From Bacteroidaceae bacterium (GTDB taxonomy: Bacteria; Bacteroidota; Bacteroidia; Bacteroidales; Bacteroidaceae), in NCBI GenBank assembly GCA_024401305.1, contig JAKSLI010000027.1, forward strand, positions 1 to 40,556: a stretch of 40,556 nucleotides of DNA, given 5' to 3'. Every line of letters starts with the position of its first letter. Position 1 is the first letter of the stretch. Made by a program: the position numbers and the translations under genes. Positions 2,004 to 10,290 of this stretch are shown here, piece by piece. The notes below the pieces were generated by a model that was not told the DNA's origin, did no database searches, and saw only the letters and a list, made by a program, of their open reading frames with translations.

Positions 2004-2035
2004 TTTGGTAGTTCGTAAATTAATTATTACTTTTG
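2004..2035 (+). promoter_or_regulatory. Family A promoter, copy 1
   Basis: TTTG at 2004-2007, a 20-bp spacer, then TACTTTTG at 2028-2035. The surrounding 55 bp (from TTTTCTTGCC to TTTTGCA) recurs almost unchanged before three other units downstream. It drives the ATPase gene at 2079. Confidence 0.8.
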
Positions 2036-2078
2036 CACTATGTAAAAATACTCAATCCACTGCGTAAAATGTAAAACT

Positions 2079-3266
2079 ATGTACAAACGTGCTGAATATC
2101 AAACAATTAAAGACCGTATAAATGAACCACGAAAGTTCATCCAGGTCGTGATGGGACCTCGTCAGGTAGGTAAATCAACCGTTGTAAAGCAAGTTTTGAA
2201 GGATATCGATTTACCTTATTTGATTTACTCTGCCGACAATGTGCCAGCAACCAACACCACATGGGTCGCCGATTGTTGGGCTGCAGCAAGGAGTTTGCTT
2301 ACTAGCAAAAGCTATTCCTGCATGATTCTTGTGATAGATGAGATTCAAAAGATCAGGAACTGGAGCGAAGCTGTAAAGAAAGAATGGGATGACGACACTT
2401 TTCATGACCGAAACATAAAGGTTTTGCTTCTTGGTAGCAGTCGCGTCCTTCTTGAGCGTGGACTTTCAGAGTCTTTGGCAGGAAGGTTTGAGGAAATACG
2501 CATGAGTCATTGGCGTTATGATGAGATGCGTGATTGCTTTGGATGGTCTCTTGACCAATACGTTTATTTTGGAGGATACCCGGGAGCAGCAACTCTCATC
2601 AATGATGAAGACAGATACGAACAATACATACAGTCGGCAATCATTGATGCTACCATAAACAAAGACATCCTGATGGATACCCCAATCAGCAAACCTGCTC
2701 TCTTACGTCAGACTTTCGAGTTGGCTACAGCATATTCGGGCGAAATCCTTTCATACAACAAGATGCTTGGGCAGCTTCTTGATGCTGGCAACACGTCCAC
2801 ATTGGCGGGGTATCTTAATCTTCTTCATGAAAGTGGGCTTGTATGCGCACTGCAAAAATACAGCGTTGACCTGGCTCGTCGCAAAGGAAGCATACCAAAG
2901 TTCCAGGTGCATAACAATGCGTTGCGTACAGTCTTTACTCCTTTGACATTCGAACAGGCAATCCTCGACAGAAAGTCGTGGGGACGCATATTTGAATCTG
3001 CAATAGGTGCATTTCTCGTAGGTCAGGCTTTTGTCCATCGCTTTGAAGTATTCTATTGGAGAGACCGTAATGACGAGGTGGACTTTGTCCTAAAAAAGAA
3101 GAATGCCGTCATTGCCATAGAAGTGAAAAGCAACAATGAAAGCAACACAACAGGACTGAAAAGGTTCAGAAATCTGTTTAATCCACAGAAAGCAATCATA
3201 GTTGGCAACAGCGGCATCCCCGCTGAGGACTTTCTTACAATGGATGTGAGCAGATTATTTGAATGA
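2079..3266 (+). CDS. AAA ATPase with C-terminal DUF4143 nuclease-like domain
   Basis: A 395-residue protein of the large ATPase/DUF4143 family common in Bacteroidetes and archaea. The Walker A motif GPRQVGKST is at residues 26-34 and Walker B LVIDEIQ is around 84-90, with LLLGSS as a probable sensor. The C-terminal part holds EVDFVLKKK...AIEVKS, a pattern resembling a PD-(D/E)xK nuclease core; whether it is active is not known. The cellular role of this family is unresolved. It is monocistronic, ends in its own terminator, and shares its promoter with the two toxin-antitoxin pairs next to it, which hints at a common regulatory context. The ATG start lies about 44 bases after the -7 box. Confidence 0.85.
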   Translation: MYKRAEYQTIKDRINEPRKFIQVVMGPRQVGKSTVVKQVLKDIDLPYLIYSADNVPATNTTWVADCWAAARSLLTSKSYSCMILVIDEIQKIRNWSEAVKKEWDDDTFHDRNIKVLLLGSSRVLLERGLSESLAGRFEEIRMSHWRYDEMRDCFGWSLDQYVYFGGYPGAATLINDEDRYEQYIQSAIIDATINKDILMDTPISKPALLRQTFELATAYSGEILSYNKMLGQLLDAGNTSTLAGYLNLLHESGLVCALQKYSVDLARRKGSIPKFQVHNNALRTVFTPLTFEQAILDRKSWGRIFESAIGAFLVGQAFVHRFEVFYWRDRNDEVDFVLKKKNAVIAIEVKSNNESNTTGLKRFRNLFNPQKAIIVGNSGIPAEDFLTMDVSRLFE

Positions 3267-3333
3267 GATTACATAATGTGTATAGAACGAGCTAAAATCC
3301 CCGAAGAGAACTTTATCTTCTAAACCATATCAA

Positions 3334-3357
3334 GCGGCAGCCCTCTGCCGCTTTTTT
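3334..3357 (+). terminator. Intrinsic terminator after the ATPase gene
   Basis: A GCGGCAG/CTGCCGC stem (3334-3340 with 3345-3351) with a four-base loop, followed by six T residues. The same stem sequence returns at 4944-4963. Confidence 0.85.
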
Positions 3358-3369
3358 ATTTCCACGTCC

Positions 3370-3390
3370 GAAAACATCTGGCGTGTTTTC
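3370..3390. promoter_or_regulatory. Inverted repeat upstream of MNT gene 1
   Basis: GAAAACA-7 bp-TGTTTTC, a perfect 7-bp inverted repeat 18 bp upstream of the -33 box. An identical copy is at 4200-4220 before the second MNT gene. It is absent upstream of the other two family A promoters. A repressor operator is plausible. Confidence 0.5.
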
Positions 3391-3408
3391 AATTTTCTTA
3401 CCGAATTG

Positions 3409-3440
3409 TTTGGTAGTTTGGAAATTAATCATTACTTTTG
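3409..3440 (+). promoter_or_regulatory. Family A promoter, copy 2
   Basis: TTTG at 3409-3412, a 20-bp spacer and TACTTTTG at 3433-3440. It begins transcription a few bases before the MNT start codon at 3464, which rules out the longer upstream reading frame as the real start. Confidence 0.85.
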
Positions 3441-3463
3441 CAGATGTTAAAGTATATATAGCA

Positions 3464-3766
3464 ATGCTAAGGAATAGTAACATAACACAGATTCTCTGCG
3501 AATTCTTCAAGGACAAACCTGTAGATAAGGTTTGGATTTTCGGTAGTTTTTCTCGTGGGGAAGAGCGTGACGACAGTGACATTGATATCATTGTCGCAAT
3601 AACTCCTAATGCCAAGTTCTCTCTCATAGACCATTCAAGATGGATTTATCAACTTGAAGACCTGTTGTCCAGACGTGTAGATTTGGTAAAAGATGGTACT
3701 CTTCTACCATTTGCAGAAGAAAGTGCAAATCATGATAAAATATTAATTTATGAGAGAGCCGCTTAA
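3464..3766 (+). CDS. mntA: MntA-type nucleotidyltransferase antitoxin, pair 1
   Basis: A 100-residue minimal nucleotidyltransferase. GSFSRGEERDDSDID (residues 27-41) fits the GSx10DxD signature of MntA antitoxins, with G27, S28, D39 and D41 as the NTP and metal binding positions. In characterised HepT/MntA systems the MNT protein AMPylates a tyrosine in the HEPN toxin and so silences its RNase activity. The start at 3464 is chosen because the promoter's -7 box ends at 3440; the frame is open upstream but would not be transcribed. The stop overlaps the HEPN start by 17 bases, so the two are translationally coupled. Confidence 0.9.
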   Translation: MLRNSNITQILCEFFKDKPVDKVWIFGSFSRGEERDDSDIDIIVAITPNAKFSLIDHSRWIYQLEDLLSRRVDLVKDGTLLPFAEESANHDKILIYERAA

Positions 3767-4109
3767 AGATACGATTAGATTACAGCACATTCTTGAAGCT
3801 ATCAGTAATATAGAAAATGCTTCCAAAGATTTGACAATGCTAGATTTGACAAGTAATGTCATACTTCGCCATGGTCTTACATGGAATATTATGGTCATTG
3901 GTGAAGCGGCAAATAAACTTACGAAAGAATTCTGTGCGACACATCCAGAAACAGACTGGAGGGCTATAACCGGAATGAGAAACGTATTGGTTCACGACTA
4001 TTACCAGATTAACGAATCAGAACTCTTTTCTGTGATAATTGATGACATACCGCCTCTCAAAAGTCAAATAGAATTGTACTTAAAAGAAACGATAGGGCAA
4101 GAGAAATAA
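3750..4109 (+). CDS. hepT: HepT-type HEPN ribonuclease toxin (DUF86), pair 1
   Basis: A 119-residue all-alpha protein. RNVLVHDY contains the RX4HXY motif (R77, H82, Y84): Arg and His form the RNase site and the Tyr is the residue AMPylated by MntA in studied systems. GEAANKL (51-57) is also typical of DUF86. It overlaps the MNT gene and is followed by a terminator, making a self-contained bicistronic unit. The target RNA cannot be told from sequence. Confidence 0.9.
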   Translation: MREPLKDTIRLQHILEAISNIENASKDLTMLDLTSNVILRHGLTWNIMVIGEAANKLTKEFCATHPETDWRAITGMRNVLVHDYYQINESELFSVIIDDIPPLKSQIELYLKETIGQEK

Positions 4110-4144
4110 AATGAACTAATTCAGCTCTTTAACTACAATAAATA

Positions 4145-4187
4145 GCGCAAACTTCAAATTCTCCTATTATGAAGTTTGCGCTTTTTT
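4145..4187 (+). terminator. Intrinsic terminator after HepT/MntA pair 1
   Basis: A 12-bp stem GCGCAAACTTCA/TGAAGTTTGCGC (4145-4156 with 4170-4181) followed by six T residues. Confidence 0.9.
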
Positions 4188-4199
4188 ATTTCCATGTCC

Positions 4200-4220
4200 G
4201 AAAACATCTGGCGTGTTTTC
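4200..4220. promoter_or_regulatory. Inverted repeat upstream of MNT gene 2
   Basis: GAAAACA-7 bp-TGTTTTC, identical to 3370-3390 including the spacer, and at the same distance from the -33 box. Confidence 0.5.
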
Positions 4221-4238
4221 GTTTTTCTTGCCGAATTG

Positions 4239-4270
4239 TTTGGCAGATTGGAATTTATTTTTTACTTTTG
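4239..4270 (+). promoter_or_regulatory. Family A promoter, copy 3
   Basis: TTTG at 4239-4242, a 20-bp spacer and TACTTTTG at 4263-4270. The sequence from 4181 to 4272 aligns with 3351-3443, so terminator tail, inverted repeat and promoter were duplicated as one block. Confidence 0.85.
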
Positions 4271-4297
4271 CAGCGTCATATCAAAAACATTTCTTCT

Positions 4298-4591
4298 ATG
4301 AACGAGCAAGTGACAAATACTATATGCAACTACTTCAAGTCAAAGCCTGTGCAGAAAGCATGGGTGTTTGGCTCGTTTGCACGTGGTGAGGAACGTCCTG
4401 ATAGTGATATTGACATTCTTATACAGTTTACGCCAGATGCAAAAATGGGCTTTGCATTCTTCGGAATGATTTGTGATTTGGAGGAAAAGTTAGCTCGCAA
4501 CGTGGATCTTGTTGTAGAAGGAAGCTTGCTCCCTTTTGCAAGAGAATCTGCCAACAAAGATAAGGTTTTAGTCTATGAGAGAGCCAATTAG
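4298..4591 (+). CDS. mntA: MntA-type nucleotidyltransferase antitoxin, pair 2
   Basis: A 97-residue paralogue of the antitoxin of pair 1. GSFARGEERPDSDID (residues 25-39) keeps GSx10DxD with G25, S26, D37 and D39. The ends are the most conserved parts (GSLLPFARESANKDKVLVYERA against GTLLPFAEESANHDKILIYERA, each quoted only as a comparison of short blocks around residues 75-96). The start follows the -7 box by 28 bases. It overlaps its HEPN partner by 17 bases, exactly as in pair 1. Confidence 0.9.
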   Translation: MNEQVTNTICNYFKSKPVQKAWVFGSFARGEERPDSDIDILIQFTPDAKMGFAFFGMICDLEEKLARNVDLVVEGSLLPFARESANKDKVLVYERAN

Positions 4592-4922
4592 AGATAAAGG
4601 AAGATTAGAGCACATACTTGAGGCTATCGCCAAGATTCAAGAATACACCAAGGGGGTTCTGACAAAGGAAGAACTGGAGAATGACCCTATGCGAAAACAT
4701 GCCACAATCTATAATGTCCAGATTATAGGTGAAGCAATATATAAACTATCACCTGAGTTTAAGGCAAATCATCCAAATACTCCTTGGCGTATGATAGAGA
4801 AATCTCGTCACATTCTTGTCCATGATTATTACCAAGTAGAAATGTCTATTCTGTGGAGCATTATCACAGAGGATATATCTCCCTTGAAGACACAAGTACT
4901 TGAATATATAAAAGAACTATAA
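4575..4922 (+). CDS. hepT: HepT-type HEPN ribonuclease toxin (DUF86), pair 2
   Basis: A 115-residue paralogue of the pair 1 toxin. RHILVHDY (R78, H83, Y85) gives RX4HXY, and IGEAIYKL matches the second family motif. The middle (about residues 25-45) and C-terminal halves differ clearly from pair 1, so the two pairs could be insulated from each other. It is followed by its own terminator. Confidence 0.9.
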   Translation: MREPIRDKGRLEHILEAIAKIQEYTKGVLTKEELENDPMRKHATIYNVQIIGEAIYKLSPEFKANHPNTPWRMIEKSRHILVHDYYQVEMSILWSIITEDISPLKTQVLEYIKEL

Positions 4923-4943
4923 CGTCATTTTATAAACAAAAAA

Positions 4944-4969
4944 GCGGCAGAGGTCTCTGCCGCTTTTTT
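4944..4969 (+). terminator. Intrinsic terminator after HepT/MntA pair 2
   Basis: GCGGCAGAG-GT-CTCTGCCGC stem (4944-4963) and six T residues. Its stem resembles that of the terminator at 3334. Confidence 0.9.
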
Positions 4970-4993
4970 ATTTTCAATTTTCTTGCCGAATTA

Positions 4994-5025
4994 TTTGGTA
5001 GTTTGGAAATTAATCATTACTTTTG
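4994..5025 (+). promoter_or_regulatory. Family A promoter, copy 4
   Basis: TTTG at 4994-4997, a 20-bp spacer and TACTTTTG at 5018-5025. The 35 bp from TTTGG to TTTTGCAG are the same as copy 2. No large reading frame follows; the transcript would be the RNA described next. Confidence 0.8.
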
Positions 5026-5031
5026 CAGCGT

Positions 5032-5428
5032 CCTTTGCCATGTTTGGGATGTTAACGGCAATGCCGAGGCACCTCAGGTGGGAGGGCGTTCCTGAACTCT
5101 TTCGGGAGTTTATGGGAACAAGACATAATGACAAAAGAGCGTAACTACGCTTGGGCTTGACTATTTGAAAACTTCGCAAACTTTCAATGATATCGTCAAG
5201 AACCATGCAATGGTGACGTCCTTTCGGATTGATTATATCCGAACGATTCTTTGGCTGTTGACTAATCACCTTTGACTATATTATATCCATAGGTCAAAGT
5301 CTTAGTCATGGTCAGAGATGTATTTCGTATAATCATATCAGGTGGGGCTTCGGCATTGCTCGTTCGGCGATATCGGGTAATGCGAAGACCTTCAAATAGT
5401 GGAACGGGCAGACGGGTTCCACTTTTTT
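5032..5428 (+). ncRNA. Candidate structured non-coding RNA or long leader
   Basis: The stretch is bounded by a family A promoter and a strong intrinsic terminator. It holds only one notable short frame, 34 codons at 5040-5144 (MFGMLTAMPRH...). Several local hairpins are visible: a 12-bp one at 5088-5119 (GTTCC TGAACTC paired with GAGTTTA TG GGAAC), GCGT/ACGC at 5139-5150, ACCAT/ATGGT at 5202-5214, and a closing helix ATATC/GATAT at 5335-5373. It lacks the hallmarks of tmRNA, RNase P RNA and SRP RNA. It may be a free RNA, or a leader whose terminator attenuates the BspA-like gene 48 bases further on, since that gene has no clear promoter of its own. The boundaries are inferred from promoter and terminator. 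Confidence 0.55.
5399..5428 (+). terminator. Intrinsic terminator closing the candidate RNA
   Basis: GTGGAAC (5399-5405) pairs with GTTCCAC (5416-5422); six T residues follow. It lies 48 bases before the BspA-like start codon, so it could also act as an attenuator. Confidence 0.85.
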
Positions 5429-5475: not shown

Positions 5476-6867
5476 ATGAAAAGATTATTAACTTTATTGG
5501 CGTTTGTGGCCATGTCTATTACCACCTTTGCATACGATGCGTATGTTGGTGGTCTTTATTACAATCTAAAATCCACCACAAAAGAAGCTACGGTTACCTA
5601 CAAGATATCAGGCACAGGTAGTTATTCTGGCTCAATTATTGTCCCTGAGAAGGTTACTTATAATGGCGTAGAATACAACGTGACAACCATTGGAGGCGAT
5701 GCTTTTTCTCGTTGTTCTGGTCTCACGTCTGTGACTATTCCTAACAGCGTGACGAGCATAGAAATGTATGCTTTCTATTATACTCCAAGTCTTGAATCCG
5801 TGATTCTTGGAAACAGCGTGACGAGCATTGGATCATCTGCTTTCTCTGGTTGCTCCAGTCTCACATCCGTAACCATCCCGAACAGCGTGACGAGCATTGG
5901 AAGTTATGCTTTCAATGATTGCACCAGCCTTACCTCCGTAACCATTCCGAACAGCGTGACGAGCATTGGAAGTTCTGCTTTCAGGGGTTGCTCAAATGTA
6001 AAGGAACTTATTTATGCTGATGGATGTACAACGGCATTAAATACGGGTCTTACCAAGATTGAAAAAATTGTTATTCCTAACAGCGTGACGAGCATTGCAG
6101 ATTACGCTTTCTCACAATGTTATGACATAAAAGATGTGATTGTGGGGTGGAAAACGCCGTTAGAAATAAGTAGTAATGTGTTCAGCTACATCAATGCAAC
6201 GCTCCATGTACCTGCGGGCACAAAAGAAGCATACGTGAATGCAGATGTTTGGAAAAAATTCAAGATAGTAGATGATGCAAAATTTATAATAACCATCACC
6301 CTCGGCGCTAGCGACTATTCTACTTATTGCGCCACCGCTGACCTCGACTTCTCTGAAGTTGAAGGCTTGAAGGCGTATATTGCTTCTGGCTTCATCCCAA
6401 CAACAGGTGAGTTGACAATCACCCGAATGGATAATATTCCTGCTCGTGAAGGATTCCTCTTGAAGGGTACTGCCGGCGAGAGTTATGAAGTGCCAGTGGC
6501 AAGCAACACAAATGTCGTGGCTAACCTGATGAAGGGCACTACTTCTGCTTTGACTCTCAGCCCTACTGATGGCGATTGTACTAACTATGTTCTCACAAAG
6601 AACAGTGCGGGCGAGATGGGCTTCTACCGCTTCTCAGGTCCTGTATCCGTACCTGCAAACAAGGCGTGGTTGCAGATTCCTACAAGTGCTGTTAAGAATG
6701 TGAAGGGATTCCGTATCGTGGAAGAGGATGGCGAAGTGACAGGCATCACAAATGTAGAGAAGAACGCTGCCGACAGCAACGCTCTCTATGACCTTCAGGG
6801 CCGCCGAATTAGCAACGCTTCAGCACGCGGAATCTATATCCAGAATGGTAAAAAGATAATGAAGTAA
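5476..6867 (+). CDS. BspA-like secreted leucine-rich repeat protein
   Basis: A 463-residue protein with a signal peptide (residues 1-19, MKRLLTLLAFVAMSITTFA). It carries about six LRR_5-type repeats of about 23 residues between 55 and 225, with the core SLTSVTIPNSVTSIGSSAF. A beta-rich domain (about 270-420) and a C-terminal tail (LYDLQGRRI...GIYIQNGKKIMK) follow; that tail is shared by many Prevotella secreted proteins and resembles type IX secretion sorting domains. Family members act in adhesion to host matrix or other bacteria. The repeats are almost identical at the DNA level (AACAGCGTGACGAGCATTG recurs six times), so repeat number can change by recombination. The role here is inferred from family only. 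Confidence 0.85.
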   Translation: MKRLLTLLAFVAMSITTFAYDAYVGGLYYNLKSTTKEATVTYKISGTGSYSGSIIVPEKVTYNGVEYNVTTIGGDAFSRCSGLTSVTIPNSVTSIEMYAFYYTPSLESVILGNSVTSIGSSAFSGCSSLTSVTIPNSVTSIGSYAFNDCTSLTSVTIPNSVTSIGSSAFRGCSNVKELIYADGCTTALNTGLTKIEKIVIPNSVTSIADYAFSQCYDIKDVIVGWKTPLEISSNVFSYINATLHVPAGTKEAYVNADVWKKFKIVDDAKFIITITLGASDYSTYCATADLDFSEVEGLKAYIASGFIPTTGELTITRMDNIPAREGFLLKGTAGESYEVPVASNTNVVANLMKGTTSALTLSPTDGDCTNYVLTKNSAGEMGFYRFSGPVSVPANKAWLQIPTSAVKNVKGFRIVEEDGEVTGITNVEKNAADSNALYDLQGRRISNASARGIYIQNGKKIMK

Positions 6868-8029: not shown

Positions 8030-8158
8030 CTTTGACTTCGTCTAAATTTTTACGCTCCAGTAGATGCTCAGGCGCAAGCGGAATCCTAACGCTCGGAACC
8101 GAAGGTCGGCGGTCCGAAGGAGAAAGCCAAATAAAAATGAAAGTTTTCGGACTTTCAT

Positions 8159-8189
8159 TTTGTATTTCGCTCGCTTATTCGTAATTTTG
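8159..8189 (+). promoter_or_regulatory. Upstream family B promoter of the capsule operon
   Basis: TTTG at 8159-8162, a 19-bp spacer and TAATTTTG at 8182-8189. The spacer contains TTTCGCTCGCTTATTCG, nearly the same as in the next promoter. A -7-like TAACTTTG with the same following bases (ACTTCGTCTAA) also occurs at 8027-8034, so there may be three tandem copies, the first degenerate. Confidence 0.6.
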
Positions 8190-8230
8190 ACTTCGTCTAA
8201 GGTACTCACGCTCGGAAAAATCCAAATAAA

Positions 8231-8262
8231 TTTGGTTTTTCGCTCGCTTAATCGTACCTTTG
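8231..8262 (+). promoter_or_regulatory. Proximal family B promoter of the capsule operon
   Basis: TTTG at 8231-8234, a 20-bp spacer and TACCTTTG at 8255-8262, 15 bases before the upxY start codon. A palindrome CCAAATAAATTTGG overlaps the -33 box. The whole segment 8202-8268 is nearly identical to 31279-31346 before the uridine-kinase-like gene. Confidence 0.85.
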
Positions 8263-8276
8263 CACGCGTATTTTGT

Positions 8277-8858
8277 ATGGAAACTTCATCCAAAATCGAA
8301 AAAGTACAAGATAACTGCGCGGCTGCCAATGTGACAGACGGCGGCGAAGCTGTGGAGAAATGTTGGTATGCTGCGTGCGTGAGAATGAACTGCGAGAGGA
8401 GGGTTTCTTCGCAGATTGAAGCCCTCGGCATTGAGACTTACGTGCCTCAGCAGACGCAGGTAAGGCAATGGAGCGACAGGAAAAAGAAGGTGAAGGTGGT
8501 GGTGATACCGCTCATCGTGTTCGTTCGTTGCACGGACGGCGAGGCAAAACAAGTGGAAATGCTCGGCAGCGTAAACCGATTGATGCGTGCTCCCGGCAAG
8601 AAAACGCCAGCTGCCATACCCGACAAACAGATCGATACGCTGAGAATGCTGCTGGATCAGGACAAGGTGCCTGTGGAATTCAGCGTGCAGAAGATCAGGA
8701 AGGGCGATAGGGTAAAGGTGGTGCGCGGTTTCCTCGAAGGCGTGGAAGGCGTGGTGGTGCAAGTGGAAAACTCTGAAAGCCTTGCTATCGAGATTGGCAT
8801 GATAGGCTATGCTATGGTGAAAATAGACAAGGTGGATGTGAGGGTTATTGAGTATTGA
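8277..8858 (+). CDS. UpxY-family NusG-like transcription antiterminator
   Basis: A 193-residue NusG paralogue. An NGN domain (about residues 28-110, opening KCWYAACVRMNCERRV) is followed by a KOW-type end (about 139-190, IRKGDRVKVVRGFLEGVEG). In Bacteroides, UpxY proteins load onto RNA polymerase in the leader of their own capsule operon and prevent early termination. Being the first gene of this operon fits that role. No UpxZ-like inhibitor gene follows. The start at 8277 is set by the promoter at 8231-8262; the frame is open further upstream but lies outside the transcript. The stop codon falls in the second unit of a heptamer array. Confidence 0.9.
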   Translation: METSSKIEKVQDNCAAANVTDGGEAVEKCWYAACVRMNCERRVSSQIEALGIETYVPQQTQVRQWSDRKKKVKVVVIPLIVFVRCTDGEAKQVEMLGSVNRLMRAPGKKTPAAIPDKQIDTLRMLLDQDKVPVEFSVQKIRKGDRVKVVRGFLEGVEGVVVQVENSESLAIEIGMIGYAMVKIDKVDVRVIEY

Positions 8859-8895
8859 GTAATGAGTATTGAGTAATGAGTATTGAGTAATGAGT
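8847..8895. repeat. Seven-unit heptamer array joining upxY and the next gene
   Basis: Seven units of ATTGAGT or AATGAGT in tandem. The upxY stop (8856-8858) lies in unit two and the start codon of the next gene (8890) in unit seven. Changing the unit number would alter the spacing between the two genes without changing either reading frame. Confidence 0.85.
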
Positions 8896-10290
8896 AATAA
8901 CAGCATAACATCAAACAAGCTAATACGCAACGTAATCATAGCAGTGGACTTCTTGCTGCTGTGGATTATGCTCTCGCTGTACATTAGATACGGTATGTAC
9001 GCTGTGGACATTCCTTACATGTTCATGACTATGGGTACTGCGGCAATGGTGTTTGCGGAGTTTATGGTGCCGCCTACCGTGCACAGCCATTATCTGAGCT
9101 TGGACAAGGTGATGCAGCGAACGCTCTCGTTCCTCTTTACCTTTGCCATAACATTCTACCTATTCAACTCAATCCATAGATGGATAGCAGAGGAGGTAAC
9201 GGCGGGAAAGAGCGTCGGCATGGCTGCTGTCTGGGTTTCGGCGGTCATCGTTCTGGCGCGTTTCATTGAGTTCTTTGCCATAAGATTGGGGCGTGCAAAG
9301 GGACGAAACTCGCGTTCACTGGCTTTTGTCGGTGATGCCGAGGGCATAGAAAACATTCTGGAAGAGATAGACTGCAATGCGGTGCAAGGCTTGCGACTCG
9401 TGGGCTATTATGCTGATAGCGAAACCGATGAGCTCTCTCTGCGAATGGACTACCGCGGCAACTACGAGCAGTTGAAGGAAGACATCGCAAGCGGACAACG
9501 CCTTGCTGACGATATTTACTGCACATTGCCATCTGCTGACGCAGAACTGATAACCCGACTGATGGCATATAGCATGGAGCAAGTTACCAGATTCTATTAT
9601 TTGCCATCCTTCATGCGTGAGTTCGGAAGTATGCTTCAGCCACAGACGGTGGGCAATCAGGTGGTGTTTACCAATTTCTCCGAACCGCTTATGAGTCCAA
9701 GCAACCGACTGATAAAGCGCAGCTTCGATGTCGTGGTAAGCGTAATCATACTCGTTTGCCTGTTGCCTTTCCTTCCGATAATAGCATTGATCATCAAGAT
9801 GCAGAGCCCTGGTCCGGTGTTCTTCAAGCAGAAGCGCACGGGTGCCGATGGCAAGGACTTCCTGATGTATAAGTTCCGTTCGATGCATGTGAACAGGGAT
9901 TCCGACAAACTTCAGGCGACGAAGGACGATCCCCGAAAGTTTGCTTTCGGCAACTTCATGCGCAAGACGAACATCGACGAGCTCCCGCAGTTCTTCAATG
10001 TGCTCAGAGGCGACATGTCGATAGTTGGTCCTCGCCCACACATGCTTGCCCACACTGAGGAGTACCGCAACAAGATAGGCGAATACATGCTTCGCCATTA
10101 TGTGCGTCCCGGCATAACCGGTTGGGCACAAACCACAGGCTACCGAGGCGAGACTGCTGAACTCTGGCAGATGGAAGGTCGTGTGAAGCGCGACATCTGG
10201 TATATCCAGAACTGGACTTTCTGGCTCGACCTCCGCATCATCCTCAAAACTCTCTGGAACATGATTCATGGAGAGAGTGAGGCGTATTGA
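8890..10290 (+). CDS. Undecaprenyl-phosphate sugar phosphotransferase (initiating enzyme)
   Basis: A 466-residue WbaP/WcaJ-type polyprenyl glycosylphosphotransferase. It starts capsule-unit synthesis by moving a sugar phosphate from a nucleotide sugar to undecaprenyl phosphate at the inner membrane. Four to five N-terminal membrane segments (about residues 10-135) and a Rossmann-like CoA-binding-type middle (about 142-260) precede the catalytic domain (about 275-466). That domain shows KRSFDVVVS, SPGPVFFKQKRTG, YKFRSM, DELPQ (363-367), SIVGPRP (377-383) and RPGITGWAQ. The sugar cannot be read from sequence. The start codon lies in a heptamer array. Confidence 0.9.
   Translation: MSNNSITSNKLIRNVIIAVDFLLLWIMLSLYIRYGMYAVDIPYMFMTMGTAAMVFAEFMVPPTVHSHYLSLDKVMQRTLSFLFTFAITFYLFNSIHRWIAEEVTAGKSVGMAAVWVSAVIVLARFIEFFAIRLGRAKGRNSRSLAFVGDAEGIENILEEIDCNAVQGLRLVGYYADSETDELSLRMDYRGNYEQLKEDIASGQRLADDIYCTLPSADAELITRLMAYSMEQVTRFYYLPSFMREFGSMLQPQTVGNQVVFTNFSEPLMSPSNRLIKRSFDVVVSVIILVCLLPFLPIIALIIKMQSPGPVFFKQKRTGADGKDFLMYKFRSMHVNRDSDKLQATKDDPRKFAFGNFMRKTNIDELPQFFNVLRGDMSIVGPRPHMLAHTEEYRNKIGEYMLRHYVRPGITGWAQTTGYRGETAELWQMEGRVKRDIWYIQNWTFWLDLRIILKTLWNMIHGESEAY

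Follow-up and report, generated by a model that had tools for sequence, protein, structure and literature searches.

Bacterial attenuator and riboswitch leaders have a promoter of their own, a structured RNA and an intrinsic terminator just ahead of the operon, and one class of such leaders precedes many operons. T-box elements, ribosomal protein leaders and other leaders of this kind are the closest described counterparts of an RNA encoded at 5030-5428 on the forward strand of the DNA analyzed here, a stretch of 40,556 nucleotides from a Bacteroidaceae bacterium (contig JAKSLI010000027.1 of assembly GCA_024401305.1), referred to below as the window. This RNA likewise combines its own promoter, a structured RNA and an intrinsic terminator near an operon, and one RNA class is found ahead of many operons. 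It differs from T-box-type leaders in having no match in Rfam 15, in a loop past the terminator that is complementary to a terminator arm, and in the defence, stress and surface genes behind it. In Bacteroides, UpxY, a NusG paralogue, acts on the leaders of capsule loci. Those leaders are similar in being long and in preceding accessory surface operons within the same order.

We propose, at a probability of about 0.68, that positions 5030-5428 are one copy of a family of structured Bacteroidales 5' leader RNAs, which would control in cis the gene or operon behind them. The RNA is strongly conserved over about 320 nt, often present in several copies per genome, and missing from Rfam 15. Other structured RNAs have been described in this phylum, including Bacteroidales-1, Bacteroides-1, Bacteroid-trp, 6S-flavo and further Bacteroidetes motifs in the consulted part of PMC2864571. 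The present RNA differs in that no Rfam family matched at the gathering cut-off in the window or, apart from two 5S rRNAs outside the RNA, in 20 related loci. A known RNA family was considered and rejected, since none of 33 low-score Rfam matches reached the gathering score and most fell on a terminator at 4938-4969, outside the RNA. The literature searched gave no description of this RNA, including the consulted parts of PMC2864571 and PMC8040213; the supplementary tables of the latter, with thousands of numbered candidates, were beyond checking. The family is thus absent from Rfam 15 and from the literature searched, while attenuator leaders as a kind are already known.

Distribution and anatomy of the RNA family

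When the window RNA was used as a BLAST query, 5 of 79 other genomes gave fragmentary matches. A covariance model of the long rod-shaped part of the RNA (125 positions) was built from 10 seeds, kept from 13 copies aligned first and themselves aligned without a covariance model; the variable centre was removed from seven of them to meet the calibration limit. With at most 10 candidates scored per genome, the model matched 164 of 277 genomes of the window's genus, its own genome included, and up to nine matches were found in one genome. An order-wide sample gave matches in 47 of 295 genomes and 29 of 177 genera. As to spread beyond Bacteroidales, a phylum-wide sample of 296 genomes returned the window's own genome only. 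A pattern scan produced 64 stretches in named genomes and three in viral contigs, and the model confirmed 38 of the 67. The confirmed carriers include Segatella copri Indica and iAQ1173, Bacteroides caecigallinarum, B. heparinolyticus, assembled genomes labelled Phocaeicola, Parabacteroides, Alistipes and Salinivirgaceae, and one viral contig. One further carrier is labelled Lachnospiraceae, perhaps by a binning error. At one locus (L037, G045:C1:2905485) seemingly only the 5' half of the RNA is present, followed by other sequence and, by eye, an ATPase-like open reading frame (ORF) on the opposite strand.

Removal of near-duplicates at 93% core similarity reduced 106 loci to 84, on which the counts of anatomy are based. 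Comparison of these copies establishes, at the level of sequence, a promoter motif, a predicted rod, a terminator, a near-constant spacing and a loop-arm complementarity. In order, the copies show a TANNTTTG motif, a 5' domain that includes a GCGT..CGCT hairpin, the rod, the terminator, an extra hairpin in about half of the copies, and the gene. The TANNTTTG motif lies 40-270 nt upstream of the core in 79 of 82 loci, compared to 9.9 in mononucleotide shuffles, and at 84-97 nt in 52 of those 79.

The rod carries the strongest signal. In an alignment of 68 sequences fitted to the covariance model, 97.4% of the cells of its 30 pairs are paired, against 32-37% when the alignment is slid; 20 of the 30 pairs are altered on both sides, and the covariation is 0.458 compared to 0.06-0.08. 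In 500 shuffles, none of the five measures was attained. The 10 model-free seeds back the same helices, with the variable helix one base out of register in half of them. Two local hairpins instead of the rod were also considered. Their 3' arms fit a pattern in 60 of 84 copies, yet the compensatory changes follow the rod; the two hairpins are possible as a folding intermediate. The terminator stem together with its T-run is found in 72 of 84 copies (4.9 in shuffles), and the first three bases of the stem are those closing the rod. The stem taken alone was withdrawn as evidence, as 82 of 84 copies against 63.6 in shuffles is uninformative.

In the window copy (105.7 bits), the start at 5030 is placed from the -7 element of the promoter and the end at 5428 from the T-run of the terminator. 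The conserved short hairpin occupies 5137-5152, and its GCGT..CGCT letters are invariant in all 10 seeds. The rod, with its variable centre, spans 5160-5404, as defined by the covariance model and the compensatory changes. The terminator hairpin and T-run at 5398-5428, partly read from the sequence, share their first three stem bases with the base of the rod and stop about 50 nt short of the start codon, at 5476, of a gene for a BspA-type protein with LRR_5 repeats. The gap between terminator and gene contains no TANNTTTG. The preliminary description of this DNA had taken the RNA for a non-coding transcript that formed a unit of its own. That it is an RNA is borne out; its place in the sequence marks it as a putative leader of about 400 nt for the gene at 5476, not a free-standing RNA. 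A leader peptide was considered and dropped: the window copy has a short ORF, and an unscored reading of divergent copies showed nothing similar.

Five further copies are found in the same genome. Those on contigs C1 and C25 are 88-89% identical to the window copy, and all three are followed by a BspA-type gene whose ATG lies 71-74 nt past the RNA core. A diverged copy at the end of contig C72 scores 82.5 bits. A very diverged relative at C94:69304-69700 was found through a shared promoter block and reaches 17.1 bits (E 0.00055) when 1 kb is searched with the filters switched off. The sixth copy, on C78, is the best match of the covariance model in this genome, and its promoter differs from that block.

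Proposed terminator read-through and the genes behind the RNA

The extra hairpin past the terminator was examined in the 79 loci with a usable arm. Its loop complements the 3' arm of the terminator in 38 of the 79, compared to a mean of 1.8 and a maximum of 6 in 100 runs of dinucleotide shuffles; controls gave 5 with the arm reversed and 2 with the arm complemented. The end of the loop is 20-28 nt upstream of the ATG in 25 of 40. In a few loci, arm and loop have changed together: L105 and L106, alone among the loci, pass with their own arm and fail with the common arm GGCTCC, and L097, L119 and L140 pass with either arm. By our own reading, the C94 relative has an arm GAAGCC opposite a downstream loop GGCTTC.

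These features suggest a mechanism of conditional termination. Transcription would start about 90 nt ahead of the rod and reach the intrinsic terminator after a median of about 320 nt. Many transcripts would stop at this point; in a certain condition, polymerase would pass and the operon would be made. In the read-through mRNA of about half of the copies, the loop could then pair with the terminator's 3' arm, which would stay occupied, and link the leader to the start of translation. Since the loop can pair only after read-through, we assign the pairing to the open state, where it would act on the arm or else on translation. Conditional termination, an action of the loop pairing in the mRNA and a single signal for many operons are what we infer from the comparison.

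Six of the 84 loci were too short downstream for the distance to a gene, leaving 78. A same-strand first gene lies within 260 nt in 66 of these, and at 88-117 nt in 44 of the 66. Gene families were counted among the 25 commonest, in the 66 first genes and in 92 of 94 second and third genes, two being omitted for length. The first genes include LRR_5 (7), VWA/TerY (4), SspB, short-chain dehydrogenase, DUF6175 and DUF4007 (2 each), and BrxP and UvrD-like (1 each). Among the second and third genes are TerD (6), HSP70, TerY-P kinase and TerY-P phosphatase (4 each), radical SAM (3), SspC, DUF6079, BrxC (by its commonest model) and ketoacyl synthase (2 each), and a tubulin-like protein (1). A CsgG/LpoB-like protein, tested singly, is encoded behind one copy. 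In the TerD operons, the label 'TerB-like' was dropped for the first gene, which has no Pfam match. An enrichment for defence is an impression only.

A different explanation is that the RNA is stand-alone, trans-acting or protein-bound, that it ends at the terminator, and that the genes behind it are mere neighbours. Most copies do have a promoter motif and a terminator, and several copies can occur in one genome; in 12 of the 78 loci no same-strand gene lies within 260 nt. On the other hand, the distance to the next gene is near-constant, the gap between terminator and gene has no excess of promoter motifs (3 of 63, with 3.6 expected), and about half of the copies have the arm-complementing hairpin past the terminator, mostly ending shortly before the ATG. 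We therefore regard a stand-alone RNA as unlikely. Most copies have by sequence what a leader comprises: a promoter, a structured RNA and a terminator, followed by a gene that lacks a promoter of its own.

Several observations nevertheless weigh against a cis-acting leader. The first ORF is on the opposite strand in seven of the 78 loci (three of the seven are helix-turn-helix-like by eye, one of them tested) and the first gene is distant in five. The operons behind the RNA share no theme that would name a signal. The strict loop test is failed by 41 of 79 loci, its distance window was chosen after inspection of the data, and the arm was misplaced in some loci, five of 84 being dropped and at least two kept. 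The arm GGTTCC of the window copy and of those on C1 and C25 is without a matching loop, which in the case of the window copy also fits a stand-alone RNA. An arm other than GGCTCC is present in 21 loci, of which only 5 pass and 16 fail. Two of the unusual arms that fail, at L031 and L039, match in five of six letters, and at L211 (GTTCCC/GGGAAC) the two are complementary but nearer than the tested range of distances. In a variant class, GTTTGAAC or a like sequence replaces the T-run (L107, L129, L138, L141, L169, L218 and the C72 copy, L022). It is noted that in five loci of this class (L107, L129, L138, L141 and L218) a helix-turn-helix regulator is encoded behind the RNA on the opposite strand, as judged by eye and tested for L129.

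The predicted folds weigh in the same direction. The overlap of rod and terminator is confined to three pairs, and enforcing the terminator costs a median of 2.7 and a mean of 3.95 kcal/mol. The rod is retained in 70 of 77 folds with the terminator enforced, and both are present in 23 of 77 unconstrained folds. These folds do not establish a strict either-or switch between rod and terminator. Since the two can nearly coexist, a switch may need a bound factor.

A bolder extension of the cis-acting leader is that one leader class gates a dispersed Bacteroidales regulon comprising BREX, Ssp phosphorothioate, TerY-P, TerD, Hsp70-like and BspA operons. A single signal of infection or envelope stress would let polymerase pass the terminator, and the post-terminator loop would lock the open state and set translation. 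We consider this doubtful, if still worth stating. As the RNA precedes defence, stress and surface operons, one leader may help to account for unrelated immunity and surface genes being kept silent and released as a group.

The promoter block and possible exchange between units

The RNA of the window is preceded by a promoter block that recurs in the same stretch. As the preliminary description had it, TTTGG..TACTTTTGC occurs four times with an identical spacer, at 2004, 3409, 4239 and 4994; the matches are exact, with a mean of 0.02 in 100 shuffles, none of which had four. The distance from TTTG to TAnnTTTG is 20 bp in all four (19 if TTTGG is taken as the starting point). Promoters of the sigma-ABfr type, with TTTG near -33 and TAnnTTTG at -7, precede 81% of the primary start sites of B. 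thetaiotaomicron, as given in the consulted part of PMC7366714. The four copies fit this consensus and have the same core (TTTG, 20 bp, TAnnTTTG), which by its letters is a predicted standard housekeeping promoter of Bacteroidota. They differ from it in an extended flank that is common to eight places in the genome.

Block copy 1 (1982-2037) lies upstream of a DUF4143 ATPase gene, and copy 4 (4970-5028, with the -7 element at 5018-5025) would be the promoter of the leader RNA. Copies 2 and 3 belong to longer stretches of terminator tail, inverted repeat and promoter block at 3350-3443 and 4180-4273, and precede two toxin-antitoxin pairs. The flank is shared from TTTTCTTGCC onward, as described before: over 56-62 bp, identity to copy 4 is 97% for copy 2, 93% for copy 1 and 85% for copy 3, and copies 1 and 3 are 80% identical. 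The reported stretch of about 90 bp common to copies 2 and 3 amounts to 94 bp at 89% identity and extends back into the preceding terminator tail. The inverted repeat inside it has no mismatch in copy 3 (4199-4221) and one, at an end pair, in copy 2 (3369-3391). With the form CGAAAACA-N7-TGTTTTCG, this repeat separates the terminator tail from the promoter in three of the eight extended blocks, namely copies 2 and 3 and the C94 block (about 69287-69309), where the loop is unlike that of the window copies.

Each copy had been described as heading a complete unit with its own terminator. This is true of the first three units, which end in terminator-like hairpins at 3332-3353, at about 4145-4188 (read from the sequence) and at 4938-4969; the fourth leads into the BspA-type gene. 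It had further been suggested that the units form one defence or stress module, with the ATPase, the two pairs and the RNA made together. The same block does stand ahead of all four, and the ATPase and both MntA proteins match PADLOC candidate families. A search of the 3.2-Mb genome with the 66-bp extended block gave eight matches, the four of the window and one each on C1, C25, C72 and C94. The RNA lies behind each of the four outside blocks, so that five of the eight precede the RNA family, the C94 case on weak evidence. Because the extended block is found at eight places, and the window holds only four of these, it does not mark out a module of four parts. In addition, the core is an ordinary promoter of the phylum, the RNA adjoins a BspA gene in the window and on C1 and C25, and its relatives precede many other genes. 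A module of this kind is very improbable, and the suggestion was abandoned. A generic promoter ahead of hundreds of housekeeping genes, the case that would have spoken against any shared module, is also ruled out for the extended block; the core, with 14 matches in this genome, is generic. Weaker matches in other genomes precede unrelated genes and, as judged by eye, a tRNA and an SRP-like RNA.

The ATPase and the two toxin-antitoxin pairs carry the block but not the RNA, and local sequence exchange, through which these units may have gained it, is the likely reason. The recombination between like flanks proposed earlier is plausible in that the window blocks are 80-97% identical, against 49% for HepT 1 and HepT 2 and 57% for MntA 1 and MntA 2. 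The long form of copies 2 and 3 is also present at C94, over 91 bp. Two more HepT copies of this genome, on C75 and C4, are not among the extended-block matches. It is also conceivable that RNA and promoter together are a mobile or recombining repeat that spreads ahead of accessory genes, with regulation as a by-product. The three copies at 88-89% identity in this genome, and the block common to units with and without the RNA, would fit such a repeat. In other genomes, in contrast, the promoter sequences differ (by eye), and the RNAs partly sort by operon type. Among 27 hand-picked loci, leaders within one operon type are on average 73% alike, compared to 64% otherwise (46 and 305 pairs). Close orthologues and this genome's three copies enter into the comparison, and the remaining BspA leaders resemble each other no more than unrelated leaders do. 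A mobile repeat is improbable on this evidence, and the cis-acting leader remains our preferred explanation.

Neighbouring genes of the window

The gene behind the leader RNA, at 5476-6867, encodes the BspA-type leucine-rich repeat protein (LRR_5, 1.8e-44). About 2.6 kb downstream of the leader, a protein with a NusG domain (8064-8858, Pfam 1.5e-14) is encoded directly ahead of a sugar transferase (8890-10290). We see in this arrangement a resemblance to the UpxY regulators of capsule loci in Bacteroides; no link to the leader RNA is apparent.

The protein families named in the preliminary description agree with the Pfam matches. All three protein units lie on the forward strand, as do the promoter blocks and the BspA-type gene. 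The first unit encodes an AAA_14/DUF4143 ATPase of 395 aa (2079-3266; DUF4143, 2.5e-24), which matches the PADLOC candidate defence family PDC-S01 across nearly its full length (3.4e-184). The second and third units encode MntA-type antitoxins at 3464-3766 (NTP_transf_2, 1.1e-13) and 4298-4591 (3.1e-14), with start codons picked by eye, and HepT toxins at 3750-4109 (HepT-like, 3.7e-21) and 4575-4922 (4e-24). Both pairs resemble other HepT/MntA systems, with MntA first and HepT overlapping, and the shared promoter block is their sole unusual trait. HepT toxins have a motif RX4-6HXY and MntA antitoxins a motif GSX10DXD. As read from the translations, the two HepT proteins of the window carry RNVLVHDY and RHILVHDY, and the MntA proteins, encoded adjacent to hepT, carry GSFSRGEERDDSDID and GSFARGEERPDSDID.

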